From: Bacteroidota bacterium
Lineage (GTDB): Bacteria; Bacteroidota; Bacteroidia; UKL13-3
DNA length: 64,000 nt
Direction of reading: 5' to 3'
Assembly (NCBI GenBank): GCA_027482225.1
Contig: JAIXWD010000011.1
Coordinates: 22,549 to 86,548 of the forward strand
The translations under genes and the position numbers were made by a program. Below are positions 45,295 through 49,281 of the stretch, piece after piece. The notes beneath the pieces are model-generated. The model made no database searches. It was not told where the DNA came from and saw only the letters and a list, made by a program, of their open reading frames with translations. The first letter of the stretch is position 1, and each line of letters opens with the position of its first letter.

Positions 45295-46692
45295 TTAAAA
45301 TAATTTTCCGGGATTTAATAATCCTTTTGGATCAAATGCTAGTTTAATTTTACGCATTAATTCCAATTGAACATCAGGCATCACAACGCTCATATAAGGC
45401 TTTTGAACAAGGCCTATTCCATGCTCGCCACTAATTGTTCCATTTAATTTTTTACATAAAGAAAAAATTTCAATCACAGCATCGTGCAATGTTACATTCC
45501 AAAATTCGTCTGATAATTGATCTCTTAAAATGTTCACATGCAAATTGCCATCACCTGCATGTCCATAACAAATAGTTCTAAAACCATATCGATTACCAAT
45601 TTCTTTTACACCTCGATACAAAGCCGGCAATTCAGCACGAGGCACCACTGTATCTTCTTCTTTATAGGTGTTGTTGTGTTTTGTAGCCTCTCCTATACTT
45701 CTGCGAAGTTTCCAAAAATATTCTTTCTCATCAGCGGTTTGTGCAAAAAGCACTTCACCACTTTCATGAGCATATAGCACATCACTTATAAGCTCACATT
45801 CGGCTAACATGGCATCCATATTATTTCCATCAACCTCAATCAACAAATACGCTTCTACTCCTTCATCAATGGTAAAATTAATATTCAGCATATCAGCGGA
45901 AAGTCTAAATCCTTGTGGCTCTACAAACTCACAAGCACTTGGATTGCCTCCAGCTAAAAATATCCCATTTACTGCTTCGCAAGCTTTTTCTGGTGATGAG
46001 AAAGGTGCTAACATTAACAATGTTTGTTGCGGGTGTGGAATAAGTTTTAACACCATTTTGGTAACTATACCCAAGGTACCTTCACTACCAATAAATAAAT
46101 GTGTAAGGTTATATCCCGTTGAGTACTTAAGTGTATTTGCTCCTGTCCAAATAACTTCTCCAGTTGGCAAAACAACTTCTAAGTTTAACACATAATCACG
46201 GGTAGTACCATACTTTAATGCGCGAGGACCACCACTTGCATGCGCAATATTCCCACCTAAAAAACAACTGCCTTTACTGGCAGGATCTGGGGGGTAAAAC
46301 AAACCCTTTTCTTTAACGGCTTGTTGTAAATTTTCGTTAATCACACCAGGTTCAACCGTTACTTGAAAATTGCGTTCATCAATTTCAATAATTTGGTTCA
46401 TTCGACCCATTGCAATTACTACACCACCATAAATGGGCAACGCACCACCACTCAATCCCGTGCCTGCACCTCTTGGTGTGATGGGAAGATTATGTTCGTA
46501 ACAAACTTTCACAATAGCCGCAACCTCATCAGTGGTTTTCGGTTTAACAACAACCTCAGGCATATAATGCAAATCTTCAGTATAATCTTGCGCAAATTCG
46601 GCCTTATCCTCATCTAGAATAATTACAAACGGTAGACCAACTATTTGCTGAAAGGTTTTTATTTGCGTTTCGGTTACTTTGTTATATTGCAT
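45295..46692 (-). CDS. FAD-linked oxidase, glycolate oxidase GlcD type
   Basis: 465-residue cytoplasmic flavoprotein of the GlcD/D-lactate dehydrogenase family. The FAD-binding PCMH domain shows PITPRGAGTGLSGGALPIYGG (about 75-95), the PDPASKGSCFLGGNIAHASGG loop (about 135-155) and FIGSEGTLGIVTKM (about 195-208). The C-terminal substrate/FAD-oxidase domain has CYGHAGDGNLHVNI (about 370) and SGEHGIGLVQKPYM (about 418), and ends FDPKGLLNPGKLF, the classic family finish. The substrate (glycolate, D-lactate or 2-hydroxyglutarate) cannot be read. Its 5' end is only 12 bp from the left repeat of the GxxExxY element, so the element sits in its promoter region. Confidence 0.92.
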   Translation of the reverse strand: MQYNKVTETQIKTFQQIVGLPFVIILDEDKAEFAQDYTEDLHYMPEVVVKPKTTDEVAAIVKVCYEHNLPITPRGAGTGLSGGALPIYGGVVIAMGRMNQIIEIDERNFQVTVEPGVINENLQQAVKEKGLFYPPDPASKGSCFLGGNIAHASGGPRALKYGTTRDYVLNLEVVLPTGEVIWTGANTLKYSTGYNLTHLFIGSEGTLGIVTKMVLKLIPHPQQTLLMLAPFSSPEKACEAVNGIFLAGGNPSACEFVEPQGFRLSADMLNINFTIDEGVEAYLLIEVDGNNMDAMLAECELISDVLYAHESGEVLFAQTADEKEYFWKLRRSIGEATKHNNTYKEEDTVVPRAELPALYRGVKEIGNRYGFRTICYGHAGDGNLHVNILRDQLSDEFWNVTLHDAVIEIFSLCKKLNGTISGEHGIGLVQKPYMSVVMPDVQLELMRKIKLAFDPKGLLNPGKLF

Positions 46693-46704
46693 GATTCAAA
46701 TATA

Positions 46705-46730
46705 AACGCAGAGGCGCAGAGTACACAGAG
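46705..46730. repeat. Left inverted repeat of the GxxExxY unit
   Basis: Starts AACGCAGAGGCGCAGAG and continues TACACAGAG. It is built from GCAGAG-like hexamers. It lies 12 bp from the ATG of the divergent GlcD-type gene. Confidence 0.8.
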
Positions 46731-46750
46731 TTTTATTAACAAATAACAAC

Positions 46751-47140
46751 TTGGATATTAAAGAATATAACAAACTTAGTCAGCATATTATTGGATGCTG
46801 CATATCCGTTCATAAGGAACTAGGACCCGGTTTGCTAGAAAGCGTTTATGAGGAATGCTTAGCCATTGAATTAAAAAATGCAGGCTTAAATTTCAAAAGA
46901 CAAGTACATCTTCCTTTATTATATAAAGGAGAGCCAACAAATCAAAACTTCAGACTAGACTATTTAATTGAAGATGAAATAGTTCTTGAACTCAAAGCTA
47001 TTGAAGCTGTGCTTCCTATTCACGAAGTCATCCTAGTTACCTATTTAAAAATTGCAGATAAAAAACTAGGTCTGTTGGTGAACTTTCATGAAGAAATTTT
47101 AGCCAAAGGAATAAAACGAAAAGTAAATAATTTAAAATGA
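46751..47140 (+). CDS. GxxExxY protein (PDDEXK-type small nuclease fold)
   Basis: 129-residue protein of the GxxExxY family. The naming motif is visible in LGPGLLESVYEECLAIEL (residues about 26-43: G-L-L-E-S-V-Y). The PDDEXK-like core is FRLDYLIEDEIVLELKAIEAV (Asp near 69, E-L-K near 79-81), followed by the family's LPIHEVILVTYLKIADKKLGLLVNF. Members are predicted nucleases of unknown role, found in scattered, repeat-rich contexts. The only possible start is TTG at 46751; no ATG/GTG precedes it before the in-frame TAA at 46703. The stop overlaps the next ATG by four bases (ATGA), so DPP-IV translation is coupled to it. Confidence 0.85.
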   Translation: MDIKEYNKLSQHIIGCCISVHKELGPGLLESVYEECLAIELKNAGLNFKRQVHLPLLYKGEPTNQNFRLDYLIEDEIVLELKAIEAVLPIHEVILVTYLKIADKKLGLLVNFHEEILAKGIKRKVNNLK

Positions 47141-49281
47141 AAAAAATACTTATACTCTGCGCTCTCTGCGCCTCTGCGTTTAACAACTTAATCGCACAAG
47201 AAATTACATTAGAAGACATTTGGACCAAAGGAACATTTAATGCAAAAGGTGTTGCTGGTTTTAATTCAATGAATGATGGCAGATATTATACTGCACAAGA
47301 TAAGTTTGAGAATATAATTAGGTATGCTTTTAAAGATGGAAATATAGTGGATACCATCTTGCGTAAAGCAGATATAAACCTAAATGGATTTTCTTATTCG
47401 TTTAGTAGCAACGAACAAAAAATATTGCTTCAAACTAATTTCAAACAAATATATAGACACTCGTTTGCCGCTAATATTTATGTGTATGATGTAAACACTA
47501 AAAAAATAACTCAACCCATAACAGAGTTAGTTATGTTAGCCGATTTTTCTCCTGATGGAAGTAAGTTGGCTTATGTGAGAAATAACAATTTATTTGTGTT
47601 TGATTTTGCATCAAAAAAAGAAATACAAGTTACTACAGATGGCCAAACCAATAGCATTATTAATGGTGCTACCGATTGGGTTTACGAAGAAGAGTTCGCA
47701 CTTAGTAAGGGCTTTTACTGGAACAGTAACAGTACCCAGTTAGCTTATTACAGGTTTGATGAAAGTGCAGTTCGAGAATTTAACATGCCTATGTATGGTA
47801 AACTTTATCCTGAAGATAATAAATTCAAATACCCCAAAGCTGGTGAAGCAAATTCAATAATAGAAATTTATGCATACAACTTAAATTCGGGCATTAAAAC
47901 TAAAATGGATATTGGACAGGAAACCGATATTTATATTCCGCGTATACATTGGACAAAAGATGCTGGTTTACTTTGTATTCAGAGCATGAACAGGCTTCAA
48001 AATAAGTTGGAATTACTATTAGCAAACACCAACAATGGTTTAACCCAAACCATATACACCGAAGAAAACAAATCGTATATTGATGTGCCCGAAATTACCT
48101 TTTTAGCAGATGGAAAATCATTCATCATAAACAGTGAAAAAAGTGGTTGGAATCATTTGTATCACTACAACCTCAATGGAAAATTAATTAAACAAATTAC
48201 CGAAGGCAATTGGGACGTAGATCAGTTCTACGGCATCAACCCCAAAACAAAAACTATTTACATCAGTACTTCAGAATTAAATACTACAGAAAGGTATGTA
48301 TATGTTGTTGGCATTGACGGCAAAAACAAAAAACAACTCACTAAACTTAAAGGCTGGAACAGCGCAACTTTTAATGCAGATTATAGCTATTTCATGTTAA
48401 GTAACTCCAGTATAAATAAACCAAGCTATTATGCATTGTGTAATGCTTCGGGTAATGAAGTAAGGGTATTAGAAGATAATAAATTACTAATAAATAAAAT
48501 GCAACAATACCCTTTAGCTGATGCCGAAATGGTTAATTATACCAATGCTTATGGAGAAAATTTAAATGCATTTATAATTAAACCAAAGCAATTTGATGCA
48601 ACAAAAAAATATCCAGTATTGATGTATGTATATGGCGGACCTGGTCATCAATTGGCCGTTAATCGCTGGATGGGGAGTAACTACTTTTGGTATCAACTAT
48701 TGGCTGCTAAGGGTTACATCATAGTTTGTGTTGATGGAAGAGGAACAGGATTTAAAGGTGAAGCGTTTAAAAAAGTAACCTATTTACAATTGGGTAAATA
48801 CGAAATTGAAGACCAAATTTTTGTAGCCAAACAATTAGGCACACTACCTTATGTTGATGCTACTCGGATTGGTATTTGGGGTTGGAGTTTTGGCGGATAC
48901 ATGTCGAGTTTAGGTATAAGCAAAGGGGCTGAAGTATTTAAAACCGCTATTGCTGTTGCTCCTGTAACTAACTGGAGGTATTACGATAATATTTACACCG
49001 AACGTTTCATGCGCACACCGAAAGAAAACGGAACCAATTATGATGACAATTCACCGATTAACCACGTTGAAAAAATAAAAGGTAATTATTTAATCATTCA
49101 TGGTACAGCCGATGACAATGTACATTTTCAAAATGCAGTAGAAATGGTAAATGCCATGATTAACAAAGGCGTGAAATTCGACAGTGAATTTTACCCCAAC
49201 AAGAACCACGGTATTGGAGGTGCCAAAACCCGTTTACATTTATACGAGCGTATGACACGTTACATTTTAGAGAAACTATAA
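47137..49281 (+). CDS. Dipeptidyl-peptidase IV (S9 family)
   Basis: 714-residue exported serine peptidase that removes X-Pro/X-Ala dipeptides. The signal peptide is MKKILILCALCASAFNNLIA; its core LCALCASAF is encoded by the right inverted repeat of the GxxExxY unit. The N-terminal eight-bladed propeller (about 40-460) has the conserved EEEFALSKGFYWNSN segment with the Glu pair that holds the substrate N-terminus. The hydrolase domain has YVYGGPGHQ (about 500), the nucleophile in GIWGWSFGGYMSS (Ser near 590), catalytic Asp in HGTADDNVH (about 660) and His in PNKNHGIGG (about 697). It probably supplies peptides for the two POT transporters that follow. Confidence 0.95.
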   Translation: MKKILILCALCASAFNNLIAQEITLEDIWTKGTFNAKGVAGFNSMNDGRYYTAQDKFENIIRYAFKDGNIVDTILRKADINLNGFSYSFSSNEQKILLQTNFKQIYRHSFAANIYVYDVNTKKITQPITELVMLADFSPDGSKLAYVRNNNLFVFDFASKKEIQVTTDGQTNSIINGATDWVYEEEFALSKGFYWNSNSTQLAYYRFDESAVREFNMPMYGKLYPEDNKFKYPKAGEANSIIEIYAYNLNSGIKTKMDIGQETDIYIPRIHWTKDAGLLCIQSMNRLQNKLELLLANTNNGLTQTIYTEENKSYIDVPEITFLADGKSFIINSEKSGWNHLYHYNLNGKLIKQITEGNWDVDQFYGINPKTKTIYISTSELNTTERYVYVVGIDGKNKKQLTKLKGWNSATFNADYSYFMLSNSSINKPSYYALCNASGNEVRVLEDNKLLINKMQQYPLADAEMVNYTNAYGENLNAFIIKPKQFDATKKYPVLMYVYGGPGHQLAVNRWMGSNYFWYQLLAAKGYIIVCVDGRGTGFKGEAFKKVTYLQLGKYEIEDQIFVAKQLGTLPYVDATRIGIWGWSFGGYMSSLGISKGAEVFKTAIAVAPVTNWRYYDNIYTERFMRTPKENGTNYDDNSPINHVEKIKGNYLIIHGTADDNVHFQNAVEMVNAMINKGVKFDSEFYPNKNHGIGGAKTRLHLYERMTRYILEKL
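47155..47180. repeat. Right inverted repeat of the GxxExxY unit, inside DPP-IV signal peptide
   Basis: Reads CTCTGCGCTCTCTGCGCCTCTGCGTT, that is the left repeat reversed (26 bases; 17 of them exact). It covers DPP-IV codons 7-15. Confidence 0.8.

Follow-up and report, generated by a model that had tools for sequence, protein, structure and literature searches.

Repetitive DNA has been found in the reading frame of a predicted signal peptide before. YPO1552 of Yersinia, a putative exported protein of 144 aa, has the palindromic repeat RU-2, a gene-less MITE-like unit, in its predicted signal peptide (Delihas 2007, PMC2759123, PMC2229807). Given this precedent, a repeat-made signal peptide is not new as such. 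The locus described here differs from RU-2 and YPO1552 in that the repeat belongs to an element carrying a nuclease gene, that the host gene codes for a conserved enzyme, that empty sites can be seen and the element is apparently exchanged in place, and that similar candidate repeat leaders are found in several protein families. The element also resembles free-standing homing endonuclease genes, since a small gene for a nuclease occupies one fixed site in some close relatives and is missing from others, and, like them, it appears to be replaced in place, here with the flanking repeats included. Unlike homing endonuclease genes, it is bounded by inverted repeats, which also occur alone, and the modelled fold of its nuclease is nearest, though weakly, to SSO0001 and lambda exonuclease. 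With MITE-like palindromic repeats it shares gene-free copies in its own genome as well as a two-armed, nuclease-free copy at a GH10 gene (L227), whereas the copy at the locus studied here carries a nuclease gene. In the open-licence literature we found neither a described function for GxxExxY (PDDEXK_3) proteins nor a report of flanking repeats coding for signal peptides, nor did we find there a nuclease-bearing element of this kind that has a conserved host enzyme and empty sites, is exchanged in place and recurs in several protein families.

In the window, that is, the whole stretch of 64,000 nucleotides which was analysed, the genes for an FAD-linked oxidase and for dipeptidyl-peptidase IV (DPP-IV) are divergent and 444 bases apart, and a 480-base element (46703-47182) made up of a left arm, a GxxExxY gene and a right arm lies in between (Table 1). 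As originally noted, the ATG of DPP-IV (47137) overlaps the TGA (47138-47140) of the 129-aa nuclease ORF (46751-47140), forming an ATGA at 47137-47140. The expectation that the repeat reads as hydrophobic and small residues was likewise borne out: mean hydropathy of the right arm is 2.22 in the DPP-IV frame, the highest of the six, compared with 0.81 and 1.04 in the other two forward frames and negative values in the three reverse frames. Codons 7-15 (LCALCASAF) had been described as exactly the right repeat. They do lie inside the right arm, but "exactly" is slightly too strong because the arms are only 83% complementary. It is the right inverted repeat of the GxxExxY element that forms the core of the predicted DPP-IV signal peptide.

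Table 1. Features of the locus, in positions of the window.
Feature	Position	Strand	Basis or remark
GlcD-like FAD-linked oxidase	45295..46692	minus	PF01565 and PF02913
Left arm of the element's inverted repeat	46703..46738	n/a	type matches right arm across 12 loci
GxxExxY nuclease gene, PD-(D/E)XK type, start TTG	46751..47140	plus	TIGR04256 and PF13366
ATGA, DPP-IV start overlapping nuclease stop	47137..47140	plus	
Right arm of the inverted repeat, within the DPP-IV reading frame	47147..47182	plus	
Codons 7-15, LCALCASAF, predicted signal peptide core	47155..47181	plus	mean hydropathy 2.22
Codons 16-21, NNLIAQ, predicted cleavage region, outside the repeat	47182..47199	plus	
Dipeptidyl-peptidase IV (DPP-IV), host gene	47137..49281	plus	PF00930 322.3 bits, PF00326 189.6 bits

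The arms of the inverted repeat are 36 nt long and 408 nt apart, and their ungapped score of 24 lies above that of all 2000 dinucleotide shuffles, the best of which reached 15. Allowing up to one mismatch, CTCTGCGNCTCTGCG occurs at six places in the genome (reversed control: 0), two of which are the arms of the element, while four are lone copies elsewhere (L003-L006). These lone copies lie between larger frames and outside nearby ATG-started reading frames of at least 100 aa. The genome therefore holds four dispersed copies of the repeat without a gene, as in MITE-like families, and a check for other signal peptides coded by the repeat gave nothing in this genome, as none of the four further copies falls in the leader of a large ORF. 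The reverse origin, a repeat derived from the leader, was rejected because copies exist outside genes and the left arm is not in the DPP-IV gene. An Rfam search of positions 46600-47300 gave no match at E 0.1. Next to the lone copy L004, more repeats of the CACAGAG kind adjoin.

The nuclease is a full-length family member that scores above the curated cut-offs of both TIGR04256 (GxxExxY; 140.6 bits, cut-off 35) and PF13366 (PDDEXK_3; 134.8 bits, cut-off 22). It is the one GxxExxY match over the cut-off in its own genome, which has one more, weak match below it. The active-site residues of the PD-(D/E)XK type are retained: E30, D70 and K82 do not vary among 49 sequences, in which E80 is conserved to at least 90%. 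For a structure model with a pLDDT of 95.6, the nearest PDB folds were all weak matches, none of them at E <=0.001, and included SSO0001 (E 5.6e-3, TMq 0.51), which we take to be a Cas4 protein, and lambda exonuclease. The nuclease profile did not match any solved structure by sequence.

Our comparison of related genomes allowed us to follow the leader and the element together. The family comprises 64 genomes, 58 of which have a match to the DPP-IV N-terminus, and the 5' DNA of the gene was read in 56 of these, leaving out G459, which is split over contigs, and G011. Start codons were assigned by script for part of this survey and are unsure in some rows, for example G038. A repeat-coded leader is present in 13 of the 56 genomes and absent from the remaining 43. 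Six leaders are of type A (CTCTGCG; G000, G002, G004, G006, G008, G026), three of type B (CTCTGTG; G005, G016, G027) and one B-like (G015), and three are of type C (CTTTGCG; G001, G018, G028). Scored without gaps against repeat strings cut from four of the 13 loci, the leaders reached 18-27 in the 13 genomes and 4-10 in the 43. Directly upstream of DPP-IV, all 13 have a nuclease match, which is full-length in ten, shortened in G006, a remnant in G008 and limited to the last 69 bases in G026, where the contig ends. None of the other 43 has a nuclease upstream of DPP-IV, with at least 596 bases covered in each. Hence, as the original prediction required, leader DNA matches the repeat only where GxxExxY is present (13 of 13 with a nuclease or its remnant, 0 of 43 others). 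A repeat leader without an adjacent GxxExxY gene was sought in the 56 genomes as a counter-example and not found; no orthologue there combines such a leader with zero trace of the nuclease, G008 being the closest. As for the repeat-derived signal peptide of Delihas (2007), the repeat is thus in frame in the leader of 13 genomes and missing from the orthologues of 43 repeat-free ones. A contig ends inside the element in G026 (L020) and just past it in G001 (L017), which would fit strains in the sample that differ at the element.

Since elementless relatives retain the same neighbour gene, empty sites are visible. A search of 31 loci matched the FAD oxidase gene ahead of DPP-IV in 23, and 11 of these 23 are elementless (G003, G007, G009, G017, G022, G042, G047, G052, G054, G056, G057); in G017 the two genes are 30 bases apart. 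As for homing genes, the same site, recognised by the shared neighbour, is filled in some relatives and vacant in others. Elementless leaders are ordinary and unrelated to the repeat, for example MIKRLFLFFIIGALVTVRSYAQ in G003. The central claim of the original prediction, that the element landed on the 5' end of DPP-IV and that its repeat was kept as the leader, is supported both by these empty sites and by the 13 of 13 versus 0 of 43 split.

In the tree of mature DPP-IV sequences, the 13 genomes form one clade with G003 and G007 (support 100), and 16 other rows are elementless; G003 and G007 lack the element, perhaps through loss, although they lie inside the clade. This suggests that the element arrived on one or a few occasions, close to the base of the clade, since the element genomes form one clade and the 16 other rows are without it. 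The nucleases of the locus fall into two lineages with supports of 99 and 98, and as these join weakly (51), there may have been one or several first insertions. When the 11 nuclease rows are analysed alone, the split is supported by 100/100. Leader type tracks nuclease lineage in 13 of 13 genomes (A with lineage I, B and C with lineage II), where G008 and G026, of which C-terminal remnants are left, were assigned to lineage I by eye. In the larger tree, the B nucleases of lineage II stand apart from its C nucleases, and G005 is placed nowhere firmly in the 11-row tree. Furthermore, left and right arms agree in type at 12 loci, with a mean score of 21 within and 12 between types, and random pairings of left and right arms never did as well as the observed ones (0 of 10000).

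The clearest exchange is seen in G005, whose leader is of type B and whose mature DPP-IV groups among type A congeners; one clade for the three B-type mature DPP-IVs was rejected (p-AU 1.2e-5). Compared with G000, G006 and G004, G005 has DNA identities of 91-92% in the FAD oxidase and 89-92% in mature DPP-IV, and of 63-64% in the interval between them. Against G027 and G016, the corresponding values are 72-73%, 71-72% and 77%. On either side, the exchanged tract reaches no more than about 30 bases past the element; next to the tract, 30 of 30 bases towards the FAD oxidase and 27 of 30 towards DPP-IV match G006. Grouping of the G005 nuclease with the type A (lineage I) nucleases was not rejected (p-AU 0.0925). 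Because the element differs far more than the flanks and the leader changed along with it, the nuclease, both repeats and the signal peptide of G005 appear to have been swapped as one unit. The leader is made of repeat DNA and accompanies the element, and at this one pair of loci both have been replaced together. Beyond what was originally predicted, other element lineages seem to replace the element in place, with the leader following.

These observations suggest the following course of events. The element likely inserted at the 5' end of DPP-IV in an ancestor, and its right repeat, one frame of which codes for residues that are small and hydrophobic, was probably retained as an export signal that would still export the enzyme. 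The element also provides the start codon of DPP-IV, and since this start overlaps the nuclease end, translation of nuclease and DPP-IV is likely coupled. Of the old leader, probably just the part near the cleavage site survives, as the AQ before ITLEDIW; AQ or SQ recurs ahead of the conserved stretch in DPP-IV orthologues. Lineages with other repeats have since displaced the resident element at its site; this has happened at least once by the DNA evidence (G005) and likely many times. How this happens is about evenly balanced for us: the nuclease may cut the resident or empty site, with repair from a donor copy to follow. On the whole, we consider it quite probable that the repeat of the element became the core of the predicted DPP-IV leader and that element lineages have been swapped in place, and about as likely as not that the nuclease drives the swaps.

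A serious alternative, which we hold to be slightly less than evenly probable, accepts that the repeat became the leader and explains the swaps by ordinary homologous recombination among co-resident strains, with the nuclease as a passenger. The 30 FAD oxidase bases beside the element are near-identical across genera (28 of 30 between G005 and G016) and could for this reason act as short homology. Recombination over long tracts would, however, often bring the flanks along, whereas the tract of G005 stops about 30 bases from the element on either side and its flanks stay like those of its own relatives; the concordance of nuclease lineage, repeat type and leader type in all 13 genomes, two of which were assigned by eye, also points away from a mere passenger. 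Swaps between near-identical enzymes could moreover be assembly errors, in which one strain's element was joined to another strain's gene. Such joins could arise at the identical stretches of about 20-30 bases that lie beside the element, and the contig ends, inside the element in G026 and shortly past it in G001, would fit such errors. We nevertheless regard this as improbable, as types are consistent across whole groups, for example type B in 23 of 23 rows of one clade, and as they vary across several distinct groups and sources. Assembly errors would in any case leave the origin of the leader untouched, which rests on genomes with coherent contigs.

Two further readings concern the leader itself. 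The repeat-coded stretch might not be a working signal peptide, either because translation starts elsewhere or because export does not proceed through the repeat. This appears very improbable to us, since the frame is open and hydrophobic in 13 of 13 loci across four repeat types and, in G000, no ATG follows the repeat before the conserved ITLEDIW stretch is reached. In G008 (L012), the nuclease is a remnant with stops, yet the repeat-coded leader is still open, as expected if the repeat is kept for export. The leader is also open in G006 (L008), whose nuclease stops early near its end. That an ordinary leader resembles the repeat by chance deserves mention because a composition rich in L, A, C and S is common among leaders, and some ordinary ones (L118, L123, L130) do contain 13-base matches to the repeat. 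Chance likeness was rejected, and we give it next to no credence, in view of a 36-nt inverted repeat that exceeds all 2000 shuffles, left and right arms of the same type and the clean split of leader scores.

If the favoured reading of a captured repeat holds, dispersed repeats linked to a nuclease gene furnish ready-made hydrophobic leaders and are thus a concrete source of export signals. One locus, where empty sites are visible and exchange has recurred, would show this supply, as would other proteins of exported type in at least three phyla. It would also explain why the element persists beside host genes, as its removal would take away start codon and leader, and it would offer a first handle on the role of GxxExxY proteins. 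A probably selfish DNA repeat has thus likely become, and likely keeps being swapped as, a predicted protein export tag. More tentatively, and we lean towards doubt here, GxxExxY elements may be export-signal cassettes whose loss is costly because the host gene owes them its start codon and signal-peptide core, and whose nucleases oust rivals in place, so that competing selfish elements repeatedly switch the export signal of the enzyme.

Leader types vary in a wider set of DPP-IV proteins as well. We took the best 120 of 7998 matches, dropped P0059 and P0083, and built a tree of the remaining 118 proteins and 31 genome rows. Sequences in this survey come mostly from metagenome assemblies, and types were set by regular expressions on the protein leaders. 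Among these 149 rows, 67 leaders were assigned to none of the types, 46 to B, 26 to A, 9 to C and one to all three. With this mixed row excluded, the tree demands at least 33 changes of leader type, and strongly supported branches force 14 changes for A and 15 for B. One clade is entirely of type B (23 of 23 rows). The mature proteins are at least 99% identical in 181 pairs; the leader type is the same in 168 of these and different in 13. The discordant pairs come down to two groups, P0106 and P0108 versus G026-like proteins and P0012 versus G008; P0012 was classed as "none" by regular expression, yet resembles a decayed B leader. The leader of P0043 (MKQLKKTLCLCTSVVTRFCAFAVILLCASAF...) strings all three repeat types together, as if successive elements had landed in turn.

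Repeats of this kind may have been captured by other genes too. A wide scan of named genomes for ATGAA followed by three repeat units within 33 bases returned at least 118 stretches. Those listed contain at least 123 matches, and at least 15 ORFs of at least 90 aa run through the repeat. The matches listed fall into frames 0/1/2 as 39/36/48 and the ORFs of at least 90 aa as 9/3/3, so the counts among the matches listed lean to the hydrophobic frame, with two DPP-IV copies (L161, L222) included among these ORFs. L141 was left out of the Pfam search and not counted as support, and of the 12 other ORFs listed, three have a Pfam family, namely sulfatase (L149), TonB-dependent receptor (L169) and GH10 (L227), and nine have none. 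Proteins of these three families are typically exported. The genome of L149 belongs to Verrucomicrobiia and that of L169 to Brocadiia. In L227 (4944 and upstream), the start codon of the GH10 gene lies between a left and a right arm, with no nuclease in between. L155 and L198 look leader-like by eye and have no Pfam family; further long ORFs listed without a family (L193, L186, L251, L225, L218, L250, L228, L206) were not counted. Among the best 120 homologues of the sulfatase, four have an LCALCA(S/T) leader, three found by regular expression and P0123 by eye, and P0122, at 88% identity, has the leader MKHTTTLTLAAAIFIGALHATAA.

A scan of the class with a looser pattern gave 46 matches in 39 of 395 genomes (reversed control: 8). 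Six of its ten ORFs of at least 60 aa (L110, L118, L120, L122, L123, L130) were dropped because they had short-end pattern matches only or ordinary-looking frames. Besides DPP-IV, we judged four genes to have repeat-built leaders: a 248-aa protein without Pfam family in G136, a GH92 protein in G375, a lipoprotein-like protein without Pfam family in G233 and an Exo_endo_phos protein in G106. For the G136 gene, the repeat leader is absent from 19 of 19 congeneric orthologues. Taken with the wide scan, this makes it likely that other exported-type proteins, in other phyla, have also acquired leaders from similar repeats. A palindrome-like stretch, CCCCCCAACCCCCCAAAGGGGGGG, stands directly before the start codon of the G136 gene (L255) and was not seen in the orthologues read. 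At six further loci (L074, L075, L083, L085, L091, L100), GxxExxY genes with differing flanking repeats precede one and the same gene, which starts like ...IRxQFPILHQ... and presumably encodes a cysteine desulfurase. In L091 and L100, the probable start codon of this gene is a GTG within the repeat.
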